Origin: Candidatus Thorarchaeota archaeon
GTDB taxonomy: Archaea > Asgardarchaeota > Thorarchaeia > Thorarchaeales > Thorarchaeaceae
NCBI GenBank assembly: GCA_029855935.1
Contig: JAGSHN010000031.1
Span: forward strand, 62,001-126,000
Reading direction: 5' to 3'
DNA: 64,000 nt
The notes below the pieces were generated by a model that saw nothing but the letters and a program-made list of their open reading frames with translations, was not told where the DNA came from and did no database searches. Shown one piece after another: positions 2,688-27,276 of the stretch (its first letter is position 1; every line of letters begins with the position of its first letter). The translations under genes were made by a program, and so were the position numbers.

Positions 2688-3695
2688 ATGGATAGCAGGT
2701 CAATGAGATCAATGGTTGAGATATTCCCCGAGCTCTTGCTTCGAGGGAGCGTGAATCAGGACGTGCTTGAGAGAGCCGATATGATACGTGAGCGCGGAAT
2801 GCAGGGGATATGTCTCGTCGGGATGGGTGGCAGCTCGATCGCCGGCGAGGTGTCCAGAGCGCTCCTCCAAGGAGAAACGGAGATTCCGGTCATCAGCGTG
2901 AGAGACTACCGCCTGCCTCAGGCCGTCAACAGAGAGTGGACAGTTCTGGTCGTGAGCTACTCGGGCAACACAGAGGAGACACTCTCCGCCTTCGATGATG
3001 CCCGTCGTCGTGGTGCCGAGATATTTGCCGTGACAACAGGTGGCAGGCTAGCGGAGCTCGTACACCAAGACGAGATTATCAGACTGAGTTCAGGCCTGCA
3101 GCCAAGAGCTGCACTCCCACATATGTTCTCGCTGGAATACACTCTACTGAGAAGACTGACGGGCCTGCCGGAAGTCGACCTCTCAGATGTAGCCGCTCAC
3201 CTGAAACGGGCAAGAGAGGCCTGGCGTGATGGGAAGCCGATCTCACCACAGAGCATCACATCAGCGCTGATTGACAAGATACCCCTGTTTGTGGGGTGGC
3301 GACATCTGGCGCCCGTGGCATACAGAGCGAAGTGTCAGGTAAATGAGAATGCCAAGGCGCCAGCACTTTACTCTGAGATTCCGGAGTTTGACCACAATGA
3401 GATCGAGGCTTCGGGTAGATACTCGGCTTCGAGAATAGTGCCCATCTTTCTCAGGAGCCATCTGGAGGACGAGAGAGTCGCACTCCGGATACGGGCCACG
3501 ACGGAGGTGATGAGAGAAGAGGGGGCAGATATCGTTGAGATACCTTCCCTTGGTCATGACAGCCTGACGGAGACCCTGGCGGCCATTCTCTTCTGCGATG
3601 AGGTCTCTGTGGACCTCGCTGACAGGCTTGGTGTGGATGCGACTATTGTCAGAAGAATCGAGCGTCTCAAGAGGATCCTCGCAGGCGAGGGCTAG
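2688..3695 (+). CDS. Bifunctional phosphoglucose/phosphomannose isomerase
   Basis: An archaeal-type PGI/PMI (about 335 residues) that interconverts glucose 6-phosphate or mannose 6-phosphate with fructose 6-phosphate. The first SIS domain has CLVGMGGSSIAGEV and the phosphate-binding VVSYSGNTEETL; the C-terminal SIS domain has the family signature HNEIEA, with the catalytic Glu/His region in EIPEFDHNEIEA. Length and motif order match the crenarchaeal PGI/PMI enzymes. The frame is open from GTG 2598, but ATG 2688 gives the normal family N-terminus; GTG 2676 is also possible. Its stop overlaps the stop of the convergent gene at 3692 by a few bases. Confidence 0.85.
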   Translation: MDSRSMRSMVEIFPELLLRGSVNQDVLERADMIRERGMQGICLVGMGGSSIAGEVSRALLQGETEIPVISVRDYRLPQAVNREWTVLVVSYSGNTEETLSAFDDARRRGAEIFAVTTGGRLAELVHQDEIIRLSSGLQPRAALPHMFSLEYTLLRRLTGLPEVDLSDVAAHLKRAREAWRDGKPISPQSITSALIDKIPLFVGWRHLAPVAYRAKCQVNENAKAPALYSEIPEFDHNEIEASGRYSASRIVPIFLRSHLEDERVALRIRATTEVMREEGADIVEIPSLGHDSLTETLAAILFCDEVSVDLADRLGVDATIVRRIERLKRILAGEG

Positions 3696-4228
3696 ATGAT
3701 TCTCACACCCTCGTATAGGAACTGCACCCGCCGAACCGACTGAGGGGAGTCCAACACACGGTAGAATATCGTAAGTGTGACCTGGAATACCCACGTGTCC
3801 GTGTTGGTCGCGTTGAGTAGGGCTGCCTTATCAAGGTCATCTGTGATTCGTCCACTGACCGTGAAATTGGCTCGATAACCAGGGTATAGCGACCGATTGT
3901 CCGCAGGAATGGTCAGTCGAAAGTTCGTGTAGCTGAGGGAATTGCCATCCAGCTTGACTGCGGCGGTCAGGGACATAAGGTTCGCATCGCCCTGCAGAGT
4001 CAGCGGGACCCTAAACCCGAAGACAAAGTCCAGCCTAGGATTGATGCTGAGGTTTGCCGGATCATAGTCAACAAGGTTGACGGCATTGAGGCGTACGTCC
4101 AGAGTAGAAACCATTGCATAGCTGCCACCATAGTAGGCAGCGTTGCTGACAAGCGTGAAGGCACTGACTAGGGTGATGATGATTGTTGCAACCACTATTC
4201 GGTTCTGGGTCTTGGGGTCGGATATCAT
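3692..4228 (-). CDS. Membrane-anchored extracytoplasmic beta-domain protein
   Basis: 178 residues: a short basic N-terminus, one membrane segment (VVATIIITLVSAFTLVSNAA, about residues 12-31), then a Ser/Asn/Thr-rich outer domain with alternating strands, including a PADNRSLYPGYRANFTVSG section and several NxS/T sites. The strand pattern with paired hydrophobic segments (LDFVFGFRVPL, DTWVFQVTLTIFYRVL) suggests an Ig-like or LEA14-like beta sandwich. I do not recognise a family. ATG 4228 places the anchor at the N-terminus. It sits just downstream of the presenilin-like protease on the same strand, so it could be a partner or a substrate; that is only inference from position. Confidence 0.6.
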   Translation of the reverse strand: MISDPKTQNRIVVATIIITLVSAFTLVSNAAYYGGSYAMVSTLDVRLNAVNLVDYDPANLSINPRLDFVFGFRVPLTLQGDANLMSLTAAVKLDGNSLSYTNFRLTIPADNRSLYPGYRANFTVSGRITDDLDKAALLNATNTDTWVFQVTLTIFYRVLDSPQSVRRVQFLYEGVRII

Positions 4229-4284
4229 CGGCGCTCGCTCTCTTCCATCCGGAGACCCAATATCACACTTCCGCTCGGCGCATC

Positions 4285-5151
4285 TTAGAGAAGGAGCGAC
4301 AGTGCAACAATATGAACGATCCACGGAAAGAGCGCAAGGAATGTGGGTAGGGGTATTGCTGGCAGTATGCTGCCCTCGCGTAGAACGACGAAGACGTTGA
4401 CTGCGATACCAAGGGCCCCCAAGAGAAAGGACATACTCCAGACGTAGAACGGAAAATGAGTTATCGCGTGGGCGCCTACCAGCGAGAACACTATGAAGTC
4501 ACCCGCACCGACTGTTGCAGGGCCAGACCTGACATGTGCGTACTCGAATGGATCCTTACCGGGAGATGCAATCAGAGGTTGAGCCCTGGCACGAGGATGG
4601 TAACGGGTGAGGACATAGTCCTCAATGATGACGCTAATAGTGATGACAAAGATGGTACTGGTGAGCATTGTCACTCCGAGAAAAGTGCCGAAGATGCTAC
4701 CATAGAATATCACAAAGAGGTTCCTGATGACAGGAGGGATGACATCGACTATGATCAGAGCCAGTGACATCAGTGACACGCCGAGCGACACGACGAGGAG
4801 AAACCCGTACACGACGCTGGTTGTACCCTTGAACATCACCAGGAGAAGTGTCTCGCCGACAAAGATTGACACAAAGCCGAGAATCGGGGAGACCACGAGC
4901 GCGACGACGAGTCTGCGTCCGCGACGGCTCCCAGTCTGGACTACCCAGTAGAGGGCGCCGACCACGAGAGAGCCAAGTATGGTCGACACGATTGCTTGGA
5001 TGACTAGGCCGTAGAGACTGTAGCTCACCCCTGTGCCTATGGATCGTCCAACGTAGCTGGATGAGAGAACGGCCGAACCCACGGCTGAACCTATGACCAG
5101 AGGAGATAGTGCTACCACCATCAGTCTTGCGCGGTTCCAGTCCACTCTCAT
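4285..5151 (-). CDS. Presenilin/signal peptide peptidase-like GxGD intramembrane aspartyl protease
   Basis: 288 residues with about nine hydrophobic segments, the size of archaeal presenilin homologues. The three family marks are present in order: an Asp in the sixth segment (TISVIIEDYV, Asp178) just before a basic loop (LTRYHPRARA), the GAGD motif of the next segment (Asp218, ATVGAGDFIVFSLVG), and PAIPLP (264-269) in the place of the PAL motif. The two Asp residues form the active site in this family, which cuts single-pass membrane proteins within the bilayer. The usual Tyr before the first Asp is Glu here. ATG 5151 is favoured over the ATG 18 nt upstream. The next gene downstream (3692..4228) encodes a single-pass protein. 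Confidence 0.8.
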   Translation of the reverse strand: MRVDWNRARLMVVALSPLVIGSAVGSAVLSSSYVGRSIGTGVSYSLYGLVIQAIVSTILGSLVVGALYWVVQTGSRRGRRLVVALVVSPILGFVSIFVGETLLLVMFKGTTSVVYGFLLVVSLGVSLMSLALIIVDVIPPVIRNLFVIFYGSIFGTFLGVTMLTSTIFVITISVIIEDYVLTRYHPRARAQPLIASPGKDPFEYAHVRSGPATVGAGDFIVFSLVGAHAITHFPFYVWSMSFLLGALGIAVNVFVVLREGSILPAIPLPTFLALFPWIVHIVALSLLL

Positions 5152-5284
5152 AGTACCCACGCCCCGCATTCGAGGCTTGGACTTATAGTCAGTCTGTTCA
5201 CCGCACTGGCGAGCAGCATCGCGTGGACTGAACGCGGAAGAGGGCGTCGACAGCCCGTGGGGGGAATGTTGAGAAAAGAAAGGT

Positions 5285-5330: not shown

Positions 5331-7187
5331 CTACCGCTGACGCAGGAGGACGTAGCCACCGACGAGAATCACAACAGCAGCGCCAACCGCACCAGCAACG
5401 ATTGCCAGAGTGTAGTCTGGAGCAGTCGTCGTGGTCGTCTCGGTTGTGGTCTCGGTTGTGGTCTCGGTAGTAGTGGTTGTGGTGGAGCGGTCGAGTCCGT
5501 GGAAGTAGTTCGGGTTGTAGGTCAGCTCGGTGAACTCACCTGCAACATACTCGGAGATGTTGAATGGACCACTGGTGACCATACTGTCAGTGGGCGGGTT
5601 GGGCTGCCACTGGTCCCAGTGTTCCGTACCAATTGTCTCGAAGAAGTGCTTCGGGATGATTGGCTTGTATCCGACAGTGTGCAGGTGCCAGTAAGACTCG
5701 GTGTCGAACTCCACAACGACCGTGTACGTCGTGGGAGCGTATGCTGCGGTCATCTCGGAGAGATCCGCACCATACGGGTTGCCTGGCGCATCACGGTAGT
5801 AGTTCAATGAGAACGCTACGTCTTCTCCGGTCAGTGGTGTTCCATCTGTCCATGTGGCGTTCTGTACTAGGTTGAACGTAAACCGTGTATGCCCTTCTGG
5901 GACGTCAGGGTTGGTTGCGTGAGTGTCCGCTGTGTAGCTCTCTGCCAGCCAGAGGATGTCGTGACCCTGCGGGTCAATGGCGATCAGGCTGTCGTAGAGC
6001 TCACTCAGCACGTTCATTGTGTATGCGGAGCTGCTCGCCATGAAGTTGAACGTGTCAACGTCAAGCGGGTTGCTCCAGCGGAACGTGCCACCGAATGGAC
6101 CACCCTTGTCTGTCTTGAGGTGAACCTTGTAGTTCGTCCACCAGCCAGGCACACCACCGCTGACATCGTTCACAAAGCCCTCGAACCTGTCGGTTCTGTA
6201 GGCCGAGAGGAGGATGTTCTCGTAGCAGATGATCATCGGGCTGTCGTAGACCCAGATCCTCTGCATCTCGATGGCTGCCTCATAGACATCCTCGTAGTCA
6301 GTGGAGTGCAGGAGCTGATCTCTCCAGGTGTCGTAGGTGGAGTTCCTCCAGTTCGGGAAGTTGTAGTATGGTTCGTCAGCGTACTCCGACCAGAACTCGT
6401 AGGCCAGCCAGTCGACATCGAAGCTGCCGAAGCTGGAACCAAGGAAGACGATGTCGTAGTCACCGTGGAAGTAGAGTCTGGTGAGGTACTCGTAGAAGTC
6501 CGTTGGGGTGGACACCGCATCAACACCGAGAGCCTTCAGAGCATCGGCGACAATCTGGCCGACCTCAATGGCGATGTTGGAGGACTGTGCACACTCGACG
6601 TTGACTGAGAAGTCAGAGCCGTCGGGTGCCTCAAGCCAACCATCACCGTCGACGTCGGCGAAGCCAGCCCTGGCAAGCAGGTACTTACCATAGCCAACGT
6701 TTGCCTCGTAGTATGTGTAGGGCAGCATCCCCTCAATTGAGAACGGGTTGACCTTTGGCACACAGGAGTCCTGTGGCTCGGACAGACCGTCCCACACGTT
6801 GTCGGAGATCTTCTCCTTGTCAAGGGCAAACGCGAGGGCCCTGCGGAATTCCGTGATGTTGAACGGGTACTTCGCCGTATTGATGGTGACGTATCCGTAG
6901 CCGTTTCGGAGTACGTTGGCCACCTTGATGTTCGCTGCCGCCTCAAGGGTCGGCAGGTGCGTCGGGTCGACCATATCTCCGATCAGATCGATCTGGTCGT
7001 TCTGAAGAGCTAGAACCTGCTGGTCGTCGCCCTCTATCACGTTGAAAACAAGCTTGTTGATATATGGCCCATTCTTGAAGCCGCCAGGAATAGTCTGCGC
7101 CTTGGCATAGATTGGCGACATGGCCATCAACGTGAATGCGGCGACGAGCGAAATAGCAAGTACTCTCTTCGCACGTGCGCTCAGCAT
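5331..7187 (-). CDS. Oligopeptide ABC transporter substrate-binding protein with circularly permuted lobes and a C-terminal membrane anchor
   Basis: 618 residues. A signal peptide (residues about 1-30, AISLVAAFTLMAMSPIYAKA) is followed directly by what is normally the second half of an SBP_bac_5 protein: GPYINKLVFNVIEGDDQQ (40-57), QNDQIDLIG (62-70), then EFRRALAFALDKEKI (113-127). The normally N-terminal half follows: GGTFRWSNPLDVDTFNF (366-382), ILWLAESY (411-418), TWTDGTPLTGEDVAFSL (445-461), SGPFNISEY (539-547) and LTYNPNYFHG (555-564). A Thr/Glu stalk (567-588) and one C-terminal membrane segment (592-614) tether it to the outer face of the cell membrane. It should capture peptides for the Dpp/Opp permeases nearby. 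Start ATG 7187 has AAGGAG upstream. The lobe order is the striking feature (see findings). Confidence 0.85.
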   Translation of the reverse strand: MLSARAKRVLAISLVAAFTLMAMSPIYAKAQTIPGGFKNGPYINKLVFNVIEGDDQQVLALQNDQIDLIGDMVDPTHLPTLEAAANIKVANVLRNGYGYVTINTAKYPFNITEFRRALAFALDKEKISDNVWDGLSEPQDSCVPKVNPFSIEGMLPYTYYEANVGYGKYLLARAGFADVDGDGWLEAPDGSDFSVNVECAQSSNIAIEVGQIVADALKALGVDAVSTPTDFYEYLTRLYFHGDYDIVFLGSSFGSFDVDWLAYEFWSEYADEPYYNFPNWRNSTYDTWRDQLLHSTDYEDVYEAAIEMQRIWVYDSPMIICYENILLSAYRTDRFEGFVNDVSGGVPGWWTNYKVHLKTDKGGPFGGTFRWSNPLDVDTFNFMASSSAYTMNVLSELYDSLIAIDPQGHDILWLAESYTADTHATNPDVPEGHTRFTFNLVQNATWTDGTPLTGEDVAFSLNYYRDAPGNPYGADLSEMTAAYAPTTYTVVVEFDTESYWHLHTVGYKPIIPKHFFETIGTEHWDQWQPNPPTDSMVTSGPFNISEYVAGEFTELTYNPNYFHGLDRSTTTTTTETTTETTTETTTTTAPDYTLAIVAGAVGAAVVILVGGYVLLRQR

Positions 7188-7381: not shown

Positions 7382-9001
7382 TCACCGTTCCCTCAGGCGC
7401 GGGTTCAGCACCTGGTCGAGTGTGTGACCAACGAACGTGAAGGCCAGCGACAGGAGAGTGATCATCAGTCCCGGGAAGACGACCACCCACCACGCACCGT
7501 TGCTGAAGCCACCAGCAGCCTGGGCGTCGGCGAGCATGCGTCCCCAGCTGGGTTGGCTGGGATCAGTCAGTCCGAGGAAGGAGAGGCCAGCCTCTGAGAG
7601 GATTGCGCCTACGACGCCCAGCGTGATGTCGGCAAAGAGTATGGGTGTCACGTTGGGGAGGATGTGCCTGAATATGATGTAGGTGTCTGAGGCACCGATG
7701 GCACGCGCGGACTCCACGTATGCCTTGTTCTTCTCGGCCATAACTTGAGACCGAATCAGCCGTGACGTACCGGTCCATCCAAGTATCGCTATGACGACGA
7801 TGATGTTCTCAATGGTTGGTCCGAGGAACGCCGCGAGCACCATCATAAGCGGCAGTCCCGGGATGACGAGCAGAAAGTCAACGATTCGCATCAGTATCTC
7901 ATCGATTTTCCCGCCGAAATATCCCGATGTCAGACCGACAATCACACCGACACCGCTAGAGAGAAGGGTGGCCAAGATACCGATTGTCAGGCTGATTCGT
8001 GTTCCGAACACCAGCTGAGACCACGCGTCAGCACCCTTGTCGGTGGTCCCCAATAGGCCAAAGTAGGGCCCGTAGGCGTAGACGCTCACGTGGGTTATGT
8101 CGACTGATACGGAGCCGTCGTAGTCATGCCAGTTAAGAAACATGTTCTTGGTGGGCGCAAGACCCACAGCCAGTGTCAAGACATCCGTGGGATCCTCTTG
8201 ACCATTGCCGTTGTCCACCATTCCGCCCCACGCCTCAAGGATGTCAAACCAGCTCAGGTCCATCCCACGGGTGATGTCGGTATTCGAGTACGGTGGGTAC
8301 GACTTGTAGATCATCCTCCAGTTGCCTGACGAGTCGATGAGCCAGGCGTAGACCTTGAACATCAGGCCGCCATCAGACTTTGTTGCAAAGTCACCGCTGA
8401 GATGAACTCTCAGCCTGATGCTGACATTCACGTCGCTTGGCAAGCGCTCGTACGGCCAATCAAAAGACTGCGTGAAATAGACGAAGTCACGTACATCGGG
8501 CATCTGGCTTGAGGCATTGAATGGCAGATTGAAACGCGGACGGTCACTACTGTTGTGCATCCAAGTCAGACGGACATAATTCTCGTCCCCGGGACCAGTA
8601 CTCAGATGATGACTTCCCGTGAAGTATGAGTGGTTGCCGTAGGTCTGCGAGCCGTAGAACTGAATGTGATTAGTCTGTAGCGGATCGTCAGGAGTATATG
8701 TCATCGATAGGTCGGGGTCGGGCAGGTACTCGCCAGTCTGTACGGCTCCCGGGTCAAAGACGCTCATCCACGATGGCGCAAGGAACGAAGGGGCTATCTT
8801 GTTGCCGGGGGAGGGGTTGTACGACACAAAGTATGGCGCGCCTATTGCCAAGACGATAAAGAATGTGAGAATGGCAACACCAATTACACCCATCCTGTGA
8901 CGTTTGTACTCGCCCCAGAAGGTCACCCAGCCGATGTACCAATTGCTGTCGCGCCAGCTCTTCGTCGCCTTCGACAATACAGTCACCTTCTTGGCTCGCA
9001 A
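7382..9001 (-). CDS. DppC-type ABC permease with a large extracytoplasmic domain (paralogue 1)
   Basis: 539 residues, about 240 more than a usual DppC. Order: cytoplasmic N-terminus with NWYIGWVTFWGEYKRHRMG, first membrane segment (about 38-57), an outer domain of about 250 residues (about 60-310) with aromatic-rich strands such as FVYFTQSFDWPYERLP, then the conserved permease core with five membrane segments. The ATPase-contact loop is EKNKAYVESARAIGASD, the EAA motif. It would pair with the DppB at 14126 and the OppD/OppF ATPases at 22835-24892. TTG 9001 is used, with GGGAGAGGTG just upstream. The last third is nearly identical in DNA to the paralogue at 25672. Confidence 0.9.
   Translation of the reverse strand: MRAKKVTVLSKATKSWRDSNWYIGWVTFWGEYKRHRMGVIGVAILTFFIVLAIGAPYFVSYNPSPGNKIAPSFLAPSWMSVFDPGAVQTGEYLPDPDLSMTYTPDDPLQTNHIQFYGSQTYGNHSYFTGSHHLSTGPGDENYVRLTWMHNSSDRPRFNLPFNASSQMPDVRDFVYFTQSFDWPYERLPSDVNVSIRLRVHLSGDFATKSDGGLMFKVYAWLIDSSGNWRMIYKSYPPYSNTDITRGMDLSWFDILEAWGGMVDNGNGQEDPTDVLTLAVGLAPTKNMFLNWHDYDGSVSVDITHVSVYAYGPYFGLLGTTDKGADAWSQLVFGTRISLTIGILATLLSSGVGVIVGLTSGYFGGKIDEILMRIVDFLLVIPGLPLMMVLAAFLGPTIENIIVVIAILGWTGTSRLIRSQVMAEKNKAYVESARAIGASDTYIIFRHILPNVTPILFADITLGVVGAILSEAGLSFLGLTDPSQPSWGRMLADAQAAGGFSNGAWWVVVFPGLMITLLSLAFTFVGHTLDQVLNPRLRER
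7404..7904 (-). repeat. 501 bp near-identical inverted repeat, copy 1 (inside dppC paralogue 1)
   Basis: The minus-strand sequence here matches the plus strand at 26754..27254 over the same length, with perfect blocks more than 60 bp long that include silent third positions, separated by short mismatch patches. Identity stops abruptly at both ends although both genes continue. This looks like a gene-conversion tract between the two paralogues. Confidence 0.75.
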
Positions 9002-9122: not shown

Positions 9123-10304
9123 TTGTCGAGACTCAGAGTCAGTGACTTGGCGGTGGAAAACTTGAGAACAGACAGCCAGCTTTCCGACGAGGATGTTGCC
9201 ATGACAGTGCCGGCGCAGGAGTCGCCCGAATACGTGAGGACAAGCCTCGCCGCTGCGATGACGATTGGAAAGGTGCAAGGGAGATTCTATAGAGATGCCA
9301 AACTGTACTGTATCAACATCCTGTTGACGTACGACGAGGGGTGTCACGCCAAGTGTGCCTACTGTGGCCTCTCGGGGTCGCGGCAGACCGAGAGGGAGTG
9401 GACAGAGAACTCTTTCATCAGAGTGGACTGGCCCGTCTTTCCCGTCGAGGACATAAAACAGGCATTGCATGATGGTACCTGTCCACACGTTGAGAGGGTC
9501 TGTGTGTCAATGATCACCCACAGACGGGCTCGCGAAGACTGCCTCACAGTGGTCAGGGATCTAAGGGATGTCATCCCACATATCTCGGTGCTCATAACTC
9601 CCACAATCATCAACCGCGACTGGCTTGAGCGGGCCAAGGAGGCGGGAGCAGACAAGGTCGGGATAGCGATAGACGCTGCCACACCAGAGATCTTTGAGAA
9701 ACTGAGGGGGAGAGGAGTGAGAGGCCCTCACAAATGGGAGAGATACTGGCAGACGGTGGCAGACGCTGTCGAGATATTCGGGCCTGAGAATGTTGGCATA
9801 CACCTGATAGTGGGCATCGGCGAGACCGAGAGGGAGATGGTGATGGCAATCCAGAGGGCCCAGAATCTAGGTGCGAGAACACACCTATTCTCGTTCTTCC
9901 CAGAGGAGGGATCGGTGATGGAGGACTGGCCACAGCCCCCCATTGGCGCCTACAGACGGGTGCAGCTGGCCCGCTACATCATAAACAAGGGCATTGGTTC
10001 GGCGCACGACATGCAGTTCAACGAGAGAGGACAGATCGTGTCCTTCGGCATCGCCGATGACGTGCTCGAACAGGTGATTGCTGATGGAGAGGCCTTTATG
10101 ACATCAGGCTGCAGCGGGGAAACAATGGACAACGCGTGCAACAGGCCTTTCGGCAACTGCACACCCTATCAGGCCTCTGTCGGCCACTGGAGAAACTTCC
10201 CAATGCGACCGTCACCAGAGGACATTGAGCTGGTTCGGCAACAGATCTGGGACTACTCAACAGAATACCACGAGCCAGAGGTCGATAGCGATATTGAGCG
10301 ATGA
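9123..10304 (+). CDS. Radical SAM protein, probable lipoyl synthase component (LipS1/LipS2 type)
   Basis: 393 residues from TTG 9123; ATG 9201, preceded by GAGGATG, is an alternative start giving 367. The radical SAM cluster motif is CHAKCAYC (CX3CX2C), followed by a TIM-barrel with IGIGETEREM-like glycine turn (LIVGIGETEREMV). The C-terminal part holds further cysteines, SGCSGETMDNACNRPFGNC, which could bind the auxiliary iron-sulfur cluster that donates sulfur, as in lipoyl and biotin synthases. It is followed by a second, different radical SAM protein, a lipoate-protein ligase and a flavoprotein. That neighbourhood is the one known for the archaeal two-protein lipoyl synthase, in which both proteins are needed to insert sulfur at C6 and C8 of an octanoyl group. 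Which of the two names applies cannot be settled here. Confidence 0.75.
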   Translation: MSRLRVSDLAVENLRTDSQLSDEDVAMTVPAQESPEYVRTSLAAAMTIGKVQGRFYRDAKLYCINILLTYDEGCHAKCAYCGLSGSRQTEREWTENSFIRVDWPVFPVEDIKQALHDGTCPHVERVCVSMITHRRAREDCLTVVRDLRDVIPHISVLITPTIINRDWLERAKEAGADKVGIAIDAATPEIFEKLRGRGVRGPHKWERYWQTVADAVEIFGPENVGIHLIVGIGETEREMVMAIQRAQNLGARTHLFSFFPEEGSVMEDWPQPPIGAYRRVQLARYIINKGIGSAHDMQFNERGQIVSFGIADDVLEQVIADGEAFMTSGCSGETMDNACNRPFGNCTPYQASVGHWRNFPMRPSPEDIELVRQQIWDYSTEYHEPEVDSDIER

Positions 10305-11289
10305 GATAGACAGCGTCTTTCGAATGCCTGGTGGAGAGCTTAAGACGCTGTATGACAGGGCATTCAGGATAGGTCGGAGGGTCGCTGGCGACAGAATTGC
10401 GTTCTATGCACCAGGTATGGTGCACTATGACACAGAGTTCTACACCGCGACGGACCCGTATAGATTTCCTAGTATCTCAATCACAGGAGCAGCCTGTTCA
10501 CTGAACTGCGAGCATTGCAGTGGGCATCTCCTAGAGACTATGATTCCGGCCCCGACACCAGAGGCGCTGTGGCAGGTCCTGAAGAAGGTCAAGGAGAAGG
10601 GAGGCGAGGGCTGTCTCATCAGTGGAGGATCGACCGCCCGCGGTGACGTTCCTCTGACAAGGTTCGTGCCGACAATTGCACGAGCCAAGCGAGAGCTCGG
10701 GCTGAGCATCGTCGTCCACACTGGTGTGGTGTACAGTGATACTGTTGAGCAGCTGGCGCGCGCGGGAATTGATGGTGCCATGCTGGACATCATAGGTTCA
10801 AGGGACACTATGAGGGAGGTCTATCATCTCGACCTTGCACCAGAGGTCTTTGACAGGTCGATGCAACTGCTGAGCGACTTTGGCATTCCTATGATGCCAC
10901 ACATTGTCGTCGGTCTGTACTACGGGAAGCTGAGGGGCGAGGCGGAGGCGATTCGGATGATATCGAAGTACAATCCCGAGTCCGTCATTGTTGTGGCCTT
11001 CAAACCTCTCGACAACACCCCGATGGAGAGTACGACGCCGCCTAGTCCGACTGACATCTCGCGGGTCATCTTGGCCGCACGACTCCAGATGCCAGATGTC
11101 CCACTCATCCTCGGCTGTGCCCGGCCCCACGGTGAACATCGTCGTGTGACGGACGTGTTGGCGCTGAGATGCGGTGTGAATGGTATTGCATATCCGACGG
11201 AAGAGGCGTATGAGGCGGCACGTGAGATGGGCCTCAAGGTAGTCATGTCGAACAAGTGTTGCTCGCTGATTGCAGATACTTTGAGATGA
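10294..11289 (+). CDS. Radical SAM protein, second probable lipoyl synthase component (LipS1/LipS2 type)
   Basis: About 331 residues. The cluster motif is CSLNCEHC (CX3CX2C) near residue 65, after SISITGAA, with barrel strands such as GGEGCLISGGS and MMPHIVVGLYYG. Cys residues at the C-terminus (LILGCARPHG, ALRCGVNG and SNKCCSL) are candidates for an auxiliary cluster. The frame is open from 10225, but TTG 10294 is favoured: it follows GAGGTCGAT and overlaps the upstream stop by 11 nt, as in a coupled operon. ATG 10324 is also possible. It belongs to the biotin-synthase-like group, and its pairing with the upstream gene and a lipoate ligase supports a role in making lipoate rather than biotin. 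Confidence 0.75.
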   Translation: MSDEIDSVFRMPGGELKTLYDRAFRIGRRVAGDRIAFYAPGMVHYDTEFYTATDPYRFPSISITGAACSLNCEHCSGHLLETMIPAPTPEALWQVLKKVKEKGGEGCLISGGSTARGDVPLTRFVPTIARAKRELGLSIVVHTGVVYSDTVEQLARAGIDGAMLDIIGSRDTMREVYHLDLAPEVFDRSMQLLSDFGIPMMPHIVVGLYYGKLRGEAEAIRMISKYNPESVIVVAFKPLDNTPMESTTPPSPTDISRVILAARLQMPDVPLILGCARPHGEHRRVTDVLALRCGVNGIAYPTEEAYEAAREMGLKVVMSNKCCSLIADTLR

Positions 11290-11319
11290 CGGCCGCACCA
11301 CCGGAGGACTGACAATAAG

Positions 11320-12924
11320 ATGAACGACGAATGGCGACTCCTTGATACTGGTGTGTTGACGGGTGCCGAGAATATGGCACTTGATGATGCCATCCTTGAG
11401 TGCCGCGCTCAGGGACGCACCCCGAACACCCTGAGATTTCTTCAGTTCAATCCGGCAACAGTGCTGGTGGGCTACCATCAGTCGGTGAAGCAAGAGGTCA
11501 GGGTGGAGTACTGTAGAAGGAATGGGGTCGACATAAACAGAAGAATCACCGGAGGCGGCACGATATTGTTCACCCCGACTTGCCTTGGATGGGAGATCTA
11601 CGCCGACAAGTCGGCGCCGGGAATCAGGGAACTACGCTGGGACCTTGACCGCCTTGCAAGAAAGGTCTGTCAGGGCGCTGTGGCTGGTATCCGAAGACTG
11701 GGCGTTGAGGCCGAGTTTCGACCTAAGAACGATATCGAAGTCGGGGGCCGAAAGATATCTGGCACTGGCGGCACCGAGCGAGGAGATGCCTTCATGTATC
11801 AGGGGACGCTCCTCATCGACTTCGACGTTGACCTGATGCTCAAGACGCTGAGAATCCCTGTGGAGAAGCTGAAGGACAAGGAGATAGACAGCGTCAAGCA
11901 GCGAGTCACCTGCCTCAAATGGGAACTAGGGGAGGTACCTCCACTCCAACGGATAAAGAGGTCCCTCGTGGAGGGGTTTGCAGAGGTCTTTCAGGCGGAG
12001 TTCAGAGAGGAGGAACTCTACGAATGCGAAACAGAACTGCTCAAGGAGAGGCTGCCATACTTCCGGTCTGAGGAATGGGTTCACCTCATCGAGCCGCCAG
12101 AGTGGACTCAGGGCCAAGTGACGGCACTTCGCAAGACACCCGGTGGGCTGGTACGCGTCTCAATCGCGCTGAACATTCAAGGAAACTTCATCGTCAGTGC
12201 CCTCATCACGGGAGACTTTCAGGTCTTTCCGCAGAGAGCAATAATGGACCTTGAGGCAAGGCTGAAGAATCTCTCAGCAGACGAGGAGTCAATCAGAGAG
12301 GCAGTCTATGATTTCTTCCAAGAAACAGAAACACGCATCTTTGGGGTGGAACCAGACGACCTCGTACAGATAATCCTCGAGGCCGTGAAGAAGAAGGCAT
12401 TCCACGTCATCGGGCTGAATCTGGAGGAGGCGGACCACATAATGACGGTCAACTTCATGCCGGATGAGCTGCTGGAGCAATATTTCGACTACGTGCTATT
12501 ACCCTATTGTGCAAAGCTGGTCGACTGTGACTACAGATGGATTGAGGGATGTGATGCGTGCGGTGGTTGTACAATCAGTCCGGTATACGCGCTCTGTGAA
12601 ACCCTCGGCATACCAGTGCGAACGATTCAGAACTTCGAACACCTGATTGAAACCATCAACGAGTTCAAAGAGAGGGGAGCACGTGGGTACATCGGGTCCT
12701 GCTGCCAGGGATTCTACACCAAACACCACGATGACTTTGTGGATACGGAGGTACCTGCCCTCCTAGTCGACGTTGACGACTCCACGTGCTACGAGCTCGG
12801 AGAGGAACAAGAGGCCTATATCGGTCAATTCGAGGGACAGACGTCACTCAAGGATGACTTGATGGTGAAGATCATTCGCGAACTTCACAGAAGAGGACGG
12901 ATTGGTGGGGTGAAATTCGATTAG
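11320..12924 (+). CDS. Lipoate-protein ligase (LplA-LplB) fused to a DUF116 cysteine-rich domain
   Basis: 534 residues in three parts. Residues about 1-250 form an LplA catalytic domain: RRITGGGTILF (lipoyl-AMP loop) and NDIEVGGRKISGTGG with the catalytic Lys. Residues about 255-345 resemble LplB, the accessory domain needed for activation (ALRKTPGGLVRVSIALNIQG). Residues about 365-534 form a DUF116 domain with many cysteines (PYCAKLVDC, EGCDACGGC, GSCCQGFY), which may bind an iron-sulfur cluster or handle thiols. The protein should attach octanoate or lipoate to a carrier such as GcvH. All three parts in one chain is unusual. It lies 30 nt after the second radical SAM gene. Confidence 0.85.
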   Translation: MNDEWRLLDTGVLTGAENMALDDAILECRAQGRTPNTLRFLQFNPATVLVGYHQSVKQEVRVEYCRRNGVDINRRITGGGTILFTPTCLGWEIYADKSAPGIRELRWDLDRLARKVCQGAVAGIRRLGVEAEFRPKNDIEVGGRKISGTGGTERGDAFMYQGTLLIDFDVDLMLKTLRIPVEKLKDKEIDSVKQRVTCLKWELGEVPPLQRIKRSLVEGFAEVFQAEFREEELYECETELLKERLPYFRSEEWVHLIEPPEWTQGQVTALRKTPGGLVRVSIALNIQGNFIVSALITGDFQVFPQRAIMDLEARLKNLSADEESIREAVYDFFQETETRIFGVEPDDLVQIILEAVKKKAFHVIGLNLEEADHIMTVNFMPDELLEQYFDYVLLPYCAKLVDCDYRWIEGCDACGGCTISPVYALCETLGIPVRTIQNFEHLIETINEFKERGARGYIGSCCQGFYTKHHDDFVDTEVPALLVDVDDSTCYELGEEQEAYIGQFEGQTSLKDDLMVKIIRELHRRGRIGGVKFD

Positions 12925-12934
12925 GAAGTTCGAT

Positions 12935-13981
12935 GTGATCGTTGTGGGTGGTGGGCCAGCAGGTGCCGCTACTGCGATTGTCAGTGCCCGACGTGGACAC
13001 AGAGTTTTACTCATTGAGAGAGGAGTCCCCCCACGACACAAGCCGTGCGGAGGGGTCCTCCCGCAGGTAGCCGAGGAGACCATTGAGGACATCATCGGTG
13101 TACCAATCCCCGAGGAGGTCTTCTCAGACCCGTCGCACCTTGGTCTCTACTACGTACCACCCTCAGGGAGAGAGAATGGCGGACGCGTCCGTGGCTACTC
13201 CATACTCAACGTTGACAGGGACGCATTCGATGACTGGATCCTCACACGAGCGATAGTGAACGGAGTCCAAGTGAAGTTCGGTGCCACCTTTGTTGGATTT
13301 GTTGACAAGTCGCACACGGAGGTCGTCTACTCAAGTCCCGAGGGGATACACAGGGCAAGGGCCAGATTCGTCGTGGGCGCAGATGGTGTCCGGTCAAGAG
13401 TTCGGGATGCTCTGGGTGGGGGACCTGTTCCGCTGCTCGTAGTGGCCCAGTACTATCTTCCTCGGCAGGCCGCGGGGGCCATTGCGAACTGCTTCTACGG
13501 GCTTTTCCGCGAGGACATCTCTCCCTCATACGCCTATGCTATTCCCAAGGACAAGTCGCTCATTGTGGGCACTGGGGTCTTGCCGAAACAGGAGCCAAAT
13601 GTAGCCGTGGCCATGCGGGCATTGCTACTGTGGATCAGAGAGGAGTTCGGCGTGGCCACGGAGACCATCCTGAGGAGAGAGGCGTGGGCCATACCATACG
13701 GATTCTTCAATCCGGGAGAGCGAAATGTCATCCTCGTCGGAGACGCGGCCGGTCTGTGCAATCCGCTCTCGGGAGAGGGTATCAGGCTCGCCATCGAGTC
13801 CGGAGAGGCCGCAGCTGACGCCATCGACCAGGCAACCAGAGACAGTGATGCTGCAGACATCTATCGCAGTGGTGTGAGGCGTATCGCGGACTTTGTCCAG
13901 TCGGTCAGAGAGACGATCGATGGCTGGTCGAACGGTGATAGAGAGCAGTTCGTGAGGGAAGAGCTGACAAGGAGAATGTGA
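12935..13981 (+). CDS. FAD-dependent oxidoreductase (geranylgeranyl reductase family), LipT-like
   Basis: 348 residues from GTG 12935. The N-terminal Rossmann motif is VVGGGPAGAATA, the FAD-binding GD motif is NVILVGDAAGLCNPLSGEGI, and the substrate region has KPCGGVLP, all typical of the geranylgeranyl-reductase-like flavoproteins. In this family members can saturate isoprenoids, but a related flavoprotein called LipT is found with lipoate-assembly genes, and its place right after the lipoate ligase favours that role. An in-frame ATT at 12920 would give the more usual start RKFDVIVVGGGPAG, overlap the ligase stop by 3 nt and lie 6 nt after GGTGA, so the annotated start may be 5 residues short. 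Confidence 0.75.
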   Translation: MIVVGGGPAGAATAIVSARRGHRVLLIERGVPPRHKPCGGVLPQVAEETIEDIIGVPIPEEVFSDPSHLGLYYVPPSGRENGGRVRGYSILNVDRDAFDDWILTRAIVNGVQVKFGATFVGFVDKSHTEVVYSSPEGIHRARARFVVGADGVRSRVRDALGGGPVPLLVVAQYYLPRQAAGAIANCFYGLFREDISPSYAYAIPKDKSLIVGTGVLPKQEPNVAVAMRALLLWIREEFGVATETILRREAWAIPYGFFNPGERNVILVGDAAGLCNPLSGEGIRLAIESGEAAADAIDQATRDSDAADIYRSGVRRIADFVQSVRETIDGWSNGDREQFVREELTRRM

Positions 13982-14125: not shown

Positions 14126-15175
14126 CTATCCGTACTTGATTCGTGGATCAAGCACGCCGTACAGCAGGTCCGCCACGAAGTTGGCGAGCACCGCCGTGAT
14201 GGCGATGATCATAAAGATTGCCTGCACGACGGGATAGTCCAGCCGGACTAGACTATCGAAGATGTATCTGCCGAGCCCACGCCAGTTGAACACGGTCTCA
14301 GTAAGCGTTGCCCCGTTGATGAGGAAACCGAAGGTCATTGCAATGATTGTGACCATCGGCAGCAGCGCGTTCTTCAGACCGTGCTTGTAGAGGACTTGGT
14401 TCTCGTCAAGGCCCTTGGCCCGAGCGGTGAGAATGTAGTCCTCTGTCATGACGTCGATCAGGTTGTTGCGCATATACAGGAAGTATCCACCGTAGCCTCC
14501 GACGCCCAGAGCGACCATCGGCAATATCAGGTGGTGAAGGATGTTGCCGGCCACGTATAGTGGCCCCAGCGGGTCGTCTTTGACTGCCACCCAGAGTTCG
14601 TAGTCCATCGTACCTCGCAACGGGAAGCTAATCAGACCATTCGTCCATATTGGCATGTAGAAGGCAAAGACCATCAGGAGCAGCATTCCCAGCCAGAATA
14701 TGGGGAGGGCGTAGATGAACAGTGCCACTGTGACGGCGGTTACATCCTTTGTGGAGCCGGGCTCAGCAGCGACCTTCACACCAGTCCAGATGCCCAAGAT
14801 GATTGATACTATGGAGGAGGTCCCCATCAACAGCAGAGTGTTGGGAAGACGACTCATTATCTCATCGATGACAAGGCCCTTGCTGACAAAGGACCTGCCA
14901 AAGTTGCCGGTGAACATGTTGACGATGTAGCGCCAGAACATGTATATCCAGTCGAAGATGTCAGGGTCTGGTACCAGACCAAATCTGAGATAGATCTCCT
15001 CGAGAGCCTCACGGGTCAGGTTTCTCCGGAGGTTCTCGTCAATCATCAGGTCAACGGGACTGATGCCGAGTACAAACGTCGGAAGCCTGAACAGAAAGAA
15101 GTTGAAACAGACGACTGCAACTATCAGCAGGAACATGTAGATGCTTCGTCTGATGACGTATTCTCGGAGCCCCAA
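14126..15175 (-). CDS. DppB-type ABC transporter permease
   Basis: 349 residues. A first membrane segment (about residues 13-32), then an outer loop, then five segments of the binding-protein-dependent permease core. The EAA loop, which docks to the ATPase, is MTEDYILTARAKGLDENQ. The end LYGVLDPRIKYG is typical of DppB. Only one DppB is in the window, whereas there are two DppC paralogues, so this one may serve both. TTG 15175 is chosen because a perfect GGTGAT ribosome binding site lies 4 nt before it. Confidence 0.9.
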   Translation of the reverse strand: MGLREYVIRRSIYMFLLIVAVVCFNFFLFRLPTFVLGISPVDLMIDENLRRNLTREALEEIYLRFGLVPDPDIFDWIYMFWRYIVNMFTGNFGRSFVSKGLVIDEIMSRLPNTLLLMGTSSIVSIILGIWTGVKVAAEPGSTKDVTAVTVALFIYALPIFWLGMLLLMVFAFYMPIWTNGLISFPLRGTMDYELWVAVKDDPLGPLYVAGNILHHLILPMVALGVGGYGGYFLYMRNNLIDVMTEDYILTARAKGLDENQVLYKHGLKNALLPMVTIIAMTFGFLINGATLTETVFNWRGLGRYIFDSLVRLDYPVVQAIFMIIAITAVLANFVADLLYGVLDPRIKYG

Positions 15176-22834: not shown

Positions 22835-23899
22835 CTAGAGCTCCATCTCACCCAGCTCACCAGCAAAGTGGCAAGCGACGTGATGACCGTTGCCCATATC
22901 GCGTTCAACGGGTATCTCTCTGGTGCAGATCTCCTGCGCGTATGGACAACGCGGGTGAAACCTGCAACCACGTGGGACATTGATTGGGCTCGGGGGCTCG
23001 CCCTTCAGCGACTCGACACGACGCTTGACTGTCGGATCTCCAGACGGGACTGCAGAGATCAGAGCGCGCGTGTAAGGATGCTGGGGGTTGAAGGCGACCT
23101 CGTGAGATGGGCCAATCTCCATTATCTTGCCAAGATACATGATACCGATTCTGTCTGCGATATAGGTTGCGACAGCAAGGTCATGTGTGATGAACAGATA
23201 CGTCAGACCAAGCTCCTCGCGCAGCTTGAGCAGCAGGTTCAATATCTCGGCACGGATTGAAACGTCTAGCATCGACACCGGCTCGTCGGCGACCATGAAC
23301 TCCGGGTGGAGAATGAGCGCGCGTGCGATGGATATGCGCTGGCGCTGCCCGCCTGACAGCTCATGCGGATATCTGTCAATGTAGTCCTCTGCGGGAGTGA
23401 GAGCGACACTCTCAAGCGCCTCAAGGACACGCTCCCTGCGCTGACTGGGAGTGAGCTGAATCTTGTGGACAGTGAGTGGCTCGGACACGATGCTGTAGAT
23501 GCTCTGCTTGGGGTTGAGAGACTCGTATGGATCTTGGAAGGTGATCTGCATTCGCTTCCGCAGTTCCTTCATCTCATTGCGGTCAAGAGTACCGAGATCG
23601 ATTCCTGCATATATCACCTCACCATCGGTCGGGGGCTCAAGGTACAGAATGCACCGTCCAGTCGTTGTCTTGCCGCAGCCGGACTCTCCTGCGAGAACGA
23701 GAATCTCTCCCTTCTTGATGTCAAAGCTCACCCCGTCGACTGCCTTCACGTACAGCTCCTGTTTGTAGAGCAATGACGAGAGAAACCCTGTGTTGACAGG
23801 GAACCATTTCCTTAGATTCCGCACTTGGATGAGAGTCTCGCCTGGGGCTACCTCCTGGGCCTCCGTGAGATACCTGCTAGTCTGTGGAATTGCCATCAT
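22835..23899 (-). CDS. Oligopeptide ABC transporter ATPase (OppF/DppF type)
   Basis: 354 residues. Walker A is GESGCGKTT, the signature is LSGGQRQRIS and Walker B is EFMVADEPVSMLD, with the switch His in LFITHDL. The C-terminal oligopeptide-transporter extension with Cys-rich RGCRFHPRCPYAQEIC is present. It should energise the Dpp/Opp permeases from the cytoplasm, as a dimer with the upstream OppD. ATG 23899 has GGAGTGA before it and lies 3 nt from the oppD stop (coupled). Genes are minus-strand, with permeases at 7382, 14126 and 25672. Confidence 0.93.
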   Translation of the reverse strand: MMAIPQTSRYLTEAQEVAPGETLIQVRNLRKWFPVNTGFLSSLLYKQELYVKAVDGVSFDIKKGEILVLAGESGCGKTTTGRCILYLEPPTDGEVIYAGIDLGTLDRNEMKELRKRMQITFQDPYESLNPKQSIYSIVSEPLTVHKIQLTPSQRRERVLEALESVALTPAEDYIDRYPHELSGGQRQRISIARALILHPEFMVADEPVSMLDVSIRAEILNLLLKLREELGLTYLFITHDLAVATYIADRIGIMYLGKIMEIGPSHEVAFNPQHPYTRALISAVPSGDPTVKRRVESLKGEPPSPINVPRGCRFHPRCPYAQEICTREIPVERDMGNGHHVACHFAGELGEMEL

Positions 23900-23902
23900 C
23901 CA

Positions 23903-24892
23903 TCACTCCAACTCTACCTTCAGCTTGCCCTTCAGCTCCTCAGCGAAGTGACAGGCCACCCATCTGCCGGGTTCAATCTCCTCGAAAGCCGGCTCTTCTC
24001 TCTTGCATATGTCCTGAGCGTACGGACAACGCGGATGGAACCTGCAGCCGGGCGGTGGGTCAATCAGATCTGGCGGAGAACCCGGGATGGACGTGAGAGT
24101 CTTCTTCTCAGCCTTTACCATACTTGGAATTGCTCCCACCAGTCCGGTCGCGTACGGATGCACCGGCTCCTTGAACACCGACACCACGTCGGCCAGCTCT
24201 GCAATTCGACCGGCGTACATGACCGCGACCTTGTCACACGTTTCAGCAATGACGCTCAGGTCGTGCGTGATGAGAATCAGTGAGAGGCCGAGGTCCTTCT
24301 GAAGCTTCTGCATCAGCTTCAGGATCTGGGCCTGAATAGTCACGTCGAGCGCTGTCGTCGGCTCGTCGGCAATCACGAGGTCCGGATTGCACGCGAGGGC
24401 CATAGCAATCATTGCGCGCTGACGCATCCCACCGCTGAACTCGTGTGGGTAGTTGTGGATCCGGCCAGGGTCGAGTCCGACCATCTCGAAGAGCCGTGCC
24501 ACTCTGTCCAGGGCCTCTTCCTCAGTCACGTTCTCGTGCATCAGAATGGCCTCAGCAATCTGTTCCCCAATCTCGAAGACAGGGTTCAGTGCGTTCATCG
24601 CGCCCTGGAAGACTATGGCCACGTTCTTCCATCGGATGTCACGCATCTCGCGCGGAGTCTTTCGCAGCAGGTCTTCGCCCTTGAAGTAGATGTTACCACC
24701 GACAATGTTTGCAGCCGGCGGAAGAAGCTGCATTATGGAATAGGCAAGAGATGACTTTCCGCAGCCTGATTCACCTGCCAGTCCTATGGACTCTCCCGCC
24801 TCCAGCTGAAGCGAAACGTTGTCCACAGCCTTGACAAGTCCGCGCTTGGTTGAATAGTACATTCTTAGGTTCCTTATATCAAGCAGAGGCAT
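23903..24892 (-). CDS. Oligopeptide ABC transporter ATPase (OppD/DppD type)
   Basis: About 329 residues. Walker A is GESGCGKSS, signature FSGGMRQRAM, Walker B LVIADEPTTALDV and switch His ILITHDL, followed by the oligopeptide C-terminal domain with PPGCRFHPRCPYAQDIC. It forms the ATPase pair with the downstream OppF. ATG 24892 (GGAGATTG upstream) gives the normal family start MPLLDIRNLRMYY; the frame is open further upstream to 24949 but that extension has no family match. A TATA-like TTAAATATA lies about 90 nt upstream. Confidence 0.93.
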   Translation of the reverse strand: MPLLDIRNLRMYYSTKRGLVKAVDNVSLQLEAGESIGLAGESGCGKSSLAYSIMQLLPPAANIVGGNIYFKGEDLLRKTPREMRDIRWKNVAIVFQGAMNALNPVFEIGEQIAEAILMHENVTEEEALDRVARLFEMVGLDPGRIHNYPHEFSGGMRQRAMIAMALACNPDLVIADEPTTALDVTIQAQILKLMQKLQKDLGLSLILITHDLSVIAETCDKVAVMYAGRIAELADVVSVFKEPVHPYATGLVGAIPSMVKAEKKTLTSIPGSPPDLIDPPPGCRFHPRCPYAQDICKREEPAFEEIEPGRWVACHFAEELKGKLKVELE

Positions 24893-24977
24893 CTTCTCAA
24901 TCTCCGCCGGAGCTCTATAGCAATGGTAGGGTGTCTTGTCTGTCTGCACCCATTGCGTGGGGTGCTTCTCGGTCGGC

Positions 24978-25671: not shown

Positions 25672-27276
25672 TTGTCCATCAAGAAAGGCAGCTGGAAAGA
25701 CAGTAACTGGTACGTGAGCCTGACCGGATTCTGGAGAGAGTACAAGAAACACAGGATAGGTGTCCTTGGACTGCTTGTGATCGTGATGTTCTTTGGAATG
25801 GCAATTGGTGCACCACTCTTGGCCACGCACAACCCCTCGCCCGGAGTGAAGGTGGCACCACCGTTCCTCGCTCCCGCATGGGTGCAGGTCTTTGACTCGG
25901 GCGCCATAAGGAACGGAGAGTATCTGCCTGACCCGAATCTTGACAGAGGAACAACAACCAGTCATTTGCAGATATATGGAAGCGACACGTACGGGAATGA
26001 GTCATCGTTCTCGGGATACTATCACCAGGCCACAAGCGCTGACGACCTCAACTATATGGCGTTGCAATGGAACCATCATGCTGGTGACAGGCCGAGCTTC
26101 AGGTTTCCGTGGCCCTCCGAGAGCGAAACAGAGATGCCTATGACAGAAGACTTTGTCTACTTCACGCAGACTCTCGACTGGCCATACGAGCGGATGCCGA
26201 AGGATGTCAATGTGTCCTTTGCCTTCTCCACCCATTTCACTGGCGACTTCGCCACGCACGAGGAGGCTGGCCTGATGTTCAAGGTCTACGTCTGGCTCAT
26301 CGACTCCTCGGGCAACTGGAAAATGATCTACAAGACCTCGCCACCCTACTATGACTATCCCATCACACGAGTCGCAGACCTTAACTGGTTCGACATCGTG
26401 GCAGGCTGGAGAGGAATGGTGAAGAACAGCACCAGTGGGACCCAGGAGGATCCAGAAGACAAACTGACGCTCGCTGTGGGCCTCGCCCCGTACAAGAACT
26501 TCTTCTACTACAATGGGCATTGGGTCTACCGCGAGTGGTCGGGTAGCGTGGAGGTGAGAGTTTCCCGCCTCTCAGTCTACGTCTACGGCGGATACTTTGG
26601 ATACCTTGGCACAACGGACAAGGGCGGTGACGCATACTCCCAACTCATCTACGGTTCCAGAGTGTCACTGACGATTGGACTACTTGCAACAGCACTCTCC
26701 ACTGCTGTCGGTGTCATAGTCGGCATGGTCGCAGGATACTTCGGCGGAAAGACCGATGAGATACTGATGCGAATCGTTGACTTTCTGCTCGTCATCCCGG
26801 GACTGCCGCTTATGATGGTGCTCGCGGCGTTCCTCGGACCAACCATTGAGAACATCATCGTCGTCATAGCGATACTTGGATGGACCAGTACGTCACGGCT
26901 GATACGATCTCAGGTGCTCGCTGAGAAAAACAAGGCATACGTGGAGTCCGCGCGTGCCATCGGTGCCTCAGACACCTACATCATATTCAGGCACATCCTC
27001 CCCAACGTGACGCCCATTCTGTTTGCAAACATCACGCTGGGCGTCGTAGGCGCAATCCTCTCAGAGGCTGGCCTCTCCTTCCTCGGACTGACTGATCCGA
27101 ATGTTCCGAGTTGGGGACGCATGCTCGCCGATGCGAGAGCATCTGGTGGCTTCAGCAACGGTGCGTGGTGGGTGGTCGTCTTCCCGGGACTGATGATCAC
27201 TCTCCTGTCGCTGGCCTTCACGTTCGTTGGTCACACACTCGACCAGGTGCTGAATCCACGACTCAGAGAGCGATAG
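25672..27276 (+). CDS. DppC-type ABC permease with a large extracytoplasmic domain (paralogue 2)
   Basis: 534 residues, the same plan as the gene at 7382: cytoplasmic KGSWKDSNWYVSLTGFW, a membrane segment, an outer domain of about 250 residues with FVYFTQTLDWPYERMP, then the permease core with EAA loop EKNKAYVESARAIGASD. The outer domains of the two paralogues are clearly related but diverged, while the cores are nearly identical. TTG 25672 start with GGAGGT 7 nt upstream. There is no binding protein or DppB beside it, so it may share the DppB at 14126 and the ATPases at 22835. Confidence 0.9.
   Translation: MSIKKGSWKDSNWYVSLTGFWREYKKHRIGVLGLLVIVMFFGMAIGAPLLATHNPSPGVKVAPPFLAPAWVQVFDSGAIRNGEYLPDPNLDRGTTTSHLQIYGSDTYGNESSFSGYYHQATSADDLNYMALQWNHHAGDRPSFRFPWPSESETEMPMTEDFVYFTQTLDWPYERMPKDVNVSFAFSTHFTGDFATHEEAGLMFKVYVWLIDSSGNWKMIYKTSPPYYDYPITRVADLNWFDIVAGWRGMVKNSTSGTQEDPEDKLTLAVGLAPYKNFFYYNGHWVYREWSGSVEVRVSRLSVYVYGGYFGYLGTTDKGGDAYSQLIYGSRVSLTIGLLATALSTAVGVIVGMVAGYFGGKTDEILMRIVDFLLVIPGLPLMMVLAAFLGPTIENIIVVIAILGWTSTSRLIRSQVLAEKNKAYVESARAIGASDTYIIFRHILPNVTPILFANITLGVVGAILSEAGLSFLGLTDPNVPSWGRMLADARASGGFSNGAWWVVVFPGLMITLLSLAFTFVGHTLDQVLNPRLRER
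26754..27254 (+). repeat. 501 bp near-identical inverted repeat, copy 2 (inside dppC paralogue 2)
   Basis: Partner of 7404..7904 in inverted orientation. Long runs of identical DNA including silent sites end sharply before the last 7 codons, where CCCGCGCCTGAGG in one copy is TCCACGACTCAGA in the other although both encode the same protein end. This argues against simple selection on protein sequence. Confidence 0.75.

Follow-up and report, generated by a model that had tools for sequence, protein, structure and literature searches.

A circularly permuted SBP_bac_5 protein, probably a peptide-binding component of an Opp-type importer, in Thorarchaeota

The window analyzed here, a stretch of 64,000 nucleotides from a Candidatus Thorarchaeota archaeon (contig JAGSHN010000031.1), most likely encodes a naturally permuted, functional SBP_bac_5 (cluster C) protein that is anchored to the outside of the membrane and captures oligopeptides for an Opp-type ABC importer whose genes surround its own (Table 1). 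The reading frame is open over 618 codons from an ATG that is preceded by a GGAG box. The initial annotation had proposed that a signal peptide is followed by the C-terminal part of an SBP_bac_5 protein, then by the N-terminal part, and finally by a Thr/Glu stalk and a membrane anchor, and this order is borne out by comparison with both PF00496 and AppA. The three motifs on which the proposal was built (LTYNPNYFHG at residues 555-564, GPYINKLVFNV at residues 40-50 and GGTFRWSNPLD at residues 366-376) all lie where they had been placed, and the two partial PF00496 matches with reversed profile coordinates that it had anticipated were found. In a Pfam search, residues 39-269 match profile positions 144-364 (188.3 bits, against a cut-off of 32.4), and a later part of the chain, encoded at contig bases 67496-67951, matches profile positions 5-143. 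Likewise, the best match in the PDB for a profile built from 44 close relatives is AppA of B. subtilis (1xoc), a nonapeptide binder, with profile positions 6-268 aligning to AppA residues 212-475 and positions 326-528 to AppA residues 16-209. These AppA segments occur in reversed order, abut one another and do not overlap, a pattern characteristic of circular permutation. The normal N-to-C order of SBP_bac_5 segments is not seen in the window protein with either PF00496 or AppA, and since profile positions 144-364 precede positions 5-143, we file it as a permuted variant rather than as a standard member of the family. The initial annotation had named two observations that would speak against its reading, and neither was made: no full-length alignment in the normal order was found for the protein, and the DNA upstream of the gene encodes an OppC permease instead of an N-terminal part.

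Table 1. Features of the permuted protein and of the Opp locus around its gene (window coordinates).
Feature	Position	Strand	Details
Permuted SBP_bac_5 protein	5331..7187	-	618 aa; signal peptide, C part, N part, stalk, transmembrane helix
Signal peptide, residues 1-31 (approximate)	7095..7187	-	Hydrophobic N-terminus ending ...PIYAKAQ
Natural C-terminal part, residues 38-362	6102..7076	-	PF00496 144-364; AppA 212-475; remainder of the second domain-I segment, then domain III and the final domain-I segment
Loop AGFADVDGDGWLEAPDG, residues 174-190	6618..6668	-	Cut site of type-2 relatives, whose chains start and end here
New linker TDKGGPF, residues 359-365	6093..6113	-	Connects natural C-terminus with natural N-terminus
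Natural N-terminal part, residues 366-566	5490..6092	-	PF00496 5-143; AppA 16-209; domain I segment 1, domain II and start of domain I segment 2
Thr/Glu-rich stalk, residues 567-592	5412..5489	-	Sequence
C-terminal transmembrane anchor, residues 593-615	5343..5411	-	Sequence
OppC-type permease, ~230-aa extracellular insert	7382..9001	-	PF00528, PF12911; directly upstream of the SBP gene, conserved there
OppB-type permease	14126..15175	-	PF00528 at C27:76135-76803; between OppC genes in relatives
OppF-type ATPase	22835..23899	-	Sequence: Walker A GESGCGKTT, LSGGQ
OppD-type ATPase	23903..24949	-	Sequence; syntenic in relatives
Second OppC-type permease, same insert	25672..27276	+	Sequence, synteny
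Conserved membrane protein, no Pfam family	4285..5169	-	Directly downstream of the SBP gene
Conserved small secreted or membrane protein, no Pfam family	3692..4324	-	Downstream of the SBP gene

An AlphaFold2 model computed from the window sequence and 43 permuted relatives is a single compact fold (pLDDT 93.5, pTM 0.89) in which the linker that now bridges the natural termini has a pLDDT of ~94. The best PDB matches of this model in Foldseek are AppA and other cluster-C proteins, with TM-scores of ~0.45-0.5 over ~310-340 columns; these values come from an aligner bound to sequence order, and they are roughly those to be expected when such an aligner can fit only one part of a permuted chain at once. 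Every segment is homologous to AppA. The window protein is predicted to form one complete bilobed fold. In oligopeptide-binding proteins, domains I and II make up lobe 1 and domain III makes up lobe 2, and in AliD domain I comprises residues 29-63, 191-296 and 583-617, while domain III comprises residues 297-582 (PMC11192437). By homology, the cut at AppA 209/212 would fall within the second segment of domain I, so the C and N parts would not be the two lobes. The description of the pieces as lobes in the initial annotation must therefore be given up, and the anchor, which it had placed at a lobe boundary, exits from a domain-I loop instead. The circular permutation itself is upheld by the order of the segments, by the way in which they abut, by the single complete fold that is predicted, and by the phylogeny described below.

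The context of the gene points to a role in peptide import. The protein has a signal peptide for export, and the window holds genes for OppC, OppB, OppD and OppF of a cognate Opp/Dpp importer, with synteny conserved in relatives. In other Thorarchaeota (L054, L058 and L059), OppF-OppD face OppC-OppB-OppC-SBP, after which the same pair of small membrane or secreted proteins is encoded, and the OppF-type ATPase is syntenic in L054, L055, L058, L059 and L063. The position of the window copy in the Opp locus is conserved across Thorarchaeota genera, and the normal-order sister proteins of families f14 and f16 adjoin OppB and OppC. Given this conserved locus and the placement of the sister proteins, the window protein most likely serves the importer around it as its binding protein. 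Held at the membrane exterior by its C-terminal stalk and helix, it would pass oligopeptides to the Opp-type ABC importer.

Like AppA, DppA, OppA and AliD, to which it is homologous across the entire fold, the window protein has a signal peptide and adjoining Opp permease and ATPase genes. It differs from them in that its chain is opened within domain I, with the natural ends joined, and in that a stalk and transmembrane anchor are present at the new C-terminal end. It also differs from oligopeptide-binding proteins at the binding site: the Asp of the W-x-x-D motif, which binds the amino terminus of the peptide in pneumococcal Ami proteins (PMC11192437), is not found at the aligned place, where the window protein reads FLGSSFGSFDVDW. 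AppA reads GWSLS there and is thus also without the Asp in this alignment. Since the canonical Asp is missing at the aligned place, the ligand class rests on context, and from that context we infer a peptide ligand and its hand-over to the importer. The same PDB family also includes binders of sugars, nickel and opines. In two chains (2310 and 2587 aa), a subtilisin-type Peptidase_S8 domain follows the permuted SBP, which suggests a peptide ligand. These chains (L094:1184-8113 and L068:7965-15725) run from the permuted SBP through the subtilase to Ig-like or PKD repeats at the end; G020:C20 (2520 aa) and G061:C50 (2597 aa), both open frames, are two putative further cases.

The permuted order is widespread. 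The source genome encodes seven proteins of this order, the window copy and six paralogues, as well as two of normal order, and permuted orthologues from independent assemblies are up to 83% identical to the window protein. When 196 genomes were searched, the profile of the permuted form was matched in 44 of the 47 that belong to the family of the source genome, mostly as one stretch from about position 3 to position 528, and it was matched in further families as well, again from independent assemblies. We read the C-N order (type 1) in 103 chains from five Asgard families of the same phylum: f1, f9, f21, f28 and, with a single chain (L164), f8. The named records are nearly all Candidatus Thorarchaeota, with a few labelled Lokiarchaeota or only "archaeon". 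A signal-peptide-like stretch is present in 95 of the 103 chains and a C-terminal transmembrane helix in 94, the rest being cut by the end of the locus except for one borderline value; the linker is ~5 residues long in most. One locus (L089:175-13950) holds seven permuted SBP genes in tandem within 14 kb.

These observations bear on whether the C-N order could be an artefact of assembly or frameshift, or a decayed tandem duplicate, a reading to which we give practically no credence. We found nothing in its favour, and it is refuted by the distribution across independent assemblies, by frames that are open and conserved in sequence, and by the ordered model; six paralogues and independently assembled orthologues with the same order exclude both chance and artefact. 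The paralogues raise a different alternative, namely that the permuted proteins have ceased to work with an ABC importer and act as peptide catchers or adhesin-like proteins, their binding fold serving to retain peptides or polymers at the cell surface. The large paralogue sets, such as those of the source genome and L089, would fit this idea, as would the many paralogues that have no transporter gene nearby and several chains of 900-2600 aa in which Ig-like domains, PKD domains or a subtilase are present. However, the window orthologue itself holds its position in a complete Opp locus across genera, and we regard this alternative as unlikely. A chain fused from the C part of one SBP gene and the N part of another is quite improbable, even though tandem SBP genes are common in Thorarchaeota and part-fusions would thus be easy to make. 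In separate trees, the C part (98 SH-aLRT) and, weakly, the N part (52) group with the same normal-order Asgard proteins, indicating that one gene was permuted and not that two unrelated SBP genes were fused. If near-identical tandem copies had recombined, the trees would look no different, and such recombination is itself one way in which a gene can be permuted.

The origin of the permuted protein by rearrangement of a single gene is also reflected in a tree of 59 chains, each put into natural order. The 24 C-N chains group with normal-order Asgard proteins of families f14 and f16 (L039-L041) at 100/100. These nearest normal-order relatives share the signal peptide and the C-terminal transmembrane helix; unlike the window protein, they have the N part ahead of the C part. 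In the best tree, a single branch separates the 24 C-N chains from all others, and its support is weak (43/26). The chain from family f8 (L164:328-2526) has the C-N order yet groups with a normal-order protein; constraining it to the rest of the C-N group carries a penalty of 26.8 log units (p-AU 0.028), and it may be a second origin of the first permutation. For the main group, one ancestral Asgard gene would have been permuted, most likely once, before several Asgard families split. The chain now opens within a loop that connects two strands of domain I (NPNYF / GPYIN) and ends in that same loop, with the natural ends, both in domain I, joined through ~5 residues. The signal peptide and the C-terminal anchor would have remained at the outer ends throughout, so that the anchor would now exit through a different loop of domain I. 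As suggested in the initial annotation, the route may have been a tandem duplication whose outer halves were lost, but intermediates of the form N-C-N or N-C-N-C were not found among ~140 classified chains. Accordingly, of its two suggestions for Asgard genomes, the same order was recovered and the longer N-C-N form was not. The family-wide spread of the order and the second permutation described next had not been anticipated there.

A second permutation (type 2) was observed in eight Asgard chains (L156, L162, L165, L166, L169, L173, L174 and L178), in which the order is C2-N-C1 and the cut lies in the AGF.D.DGDG loop of domain III. In L178, the labelling of one chain, the first frame, as normal-order is doubtful: the end of the locus truncates this chain, which may be type 2. 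Plasmids encode further type-2 chains (L181-L184, L187-L191 and L195). The type-2 order occurs in cultured haloarchaea and alphaproteobacteria (Halalkalicoccus, Halobaculum, Natrononativus, Haladaptatus and Natrialba; Nitratireductor, Maritalea, Neorhizobium, Roseomonas and Ketogulonicigenium), and in annotated records the ABC permease and ATPase genes come next. Matches covering at least 80% of the Nitratireductor type-2 protein were found in 51 plasmid records. An Arthrobacter plasmid match that crosses the junction was rejected: only a C part is present, at 336-570 of a 624-aa frame, and the permuted order is not seen. A single origin of all type-2 chains is rejected (p-AU 0.0039), indicating that this permutation, which is separate in origin from that of the window protein, arose more than once.

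Within the literature searched, natural permutation was previously known only in another class of binding protein. TpMglB-2 (Tp0684, "Type Ic / Cluster Bc") is likewise a natural, functional permutation of a membrane-tethered ABC binding protein (PMC4990184). It is a bacterial lipoprotein with a Type I/cluster B sugar-binding fold, whereas the best sequence and fold matches of the window protein are SBP_bac_5/cluster C; the two permutations are unrelated, and the cluster-C case has two cut sites. No paper on permuted SBP_bac_5 proteins of either type was found in the open-access literature searched, and the second permutation is apparently unreported. The authors of the TpMglB-2 study put forward membrane anchoring as a possible driver of its permutation (PMC4990184). 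The archaeal proteins fit this idea, since an anchor at the C-terminus is mostly retained in Asgard proteins of the normal, type-1 and type-2 orders, and it exits from three different places in the fold. The bacterial type-2 proteins, however, are without an anchor, so anchoring is neither the sole nor a general cause, and drift after tandem duplication is an equally good explanation.

We raise, as possible rather than probable, a broader reading in which SBP_bac_5 tolerates permutation at two different loops, in domain I and domain III, and has fixed it repeatedly, the archaeal anchor has been moved round the fold, changing how the protein is held towards the permease, and Thorarchaeota have expanded the form as surface peptide catchers, some joined to a protease. 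Large two-lobed receptors are rarely permuted in nature, and the permutation described here appears ancient, family-wide and present at more than one site. Both orders coexist in one genome, which offers a natural experiment on the influence of chain ends and of anchor position on the docking and closing of binding proteins, and the presence of the type-2 form in cultured haloarchaea and rhizobia opens the question to bench testing. The permutation also explains why such proteins give two partial hits in profile annotation, and the protease fusion suggests a possible link in Asgard archaea between extracellular proteolysis and peptide capture.

Two further features of the locus were observed. 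Radical SAM, lipoate-ligase-like and geranylgeranyl-reductase-like genes lie at 9123-13981, between OppB and OppC. This block is also found between OppB and OppC in one genome of the same genus, and radical SAM and ligase genes adjoin OppC in L053; the full block is absent from the other Thorarchaeota loci read. Both OppC permeases carry their insert after the first helix and ahead of the permease domain, and the insert is modelled as a beta sandwich whose best PDB matches, which are weak, are carbohydrate-binding modules such as CBM4.
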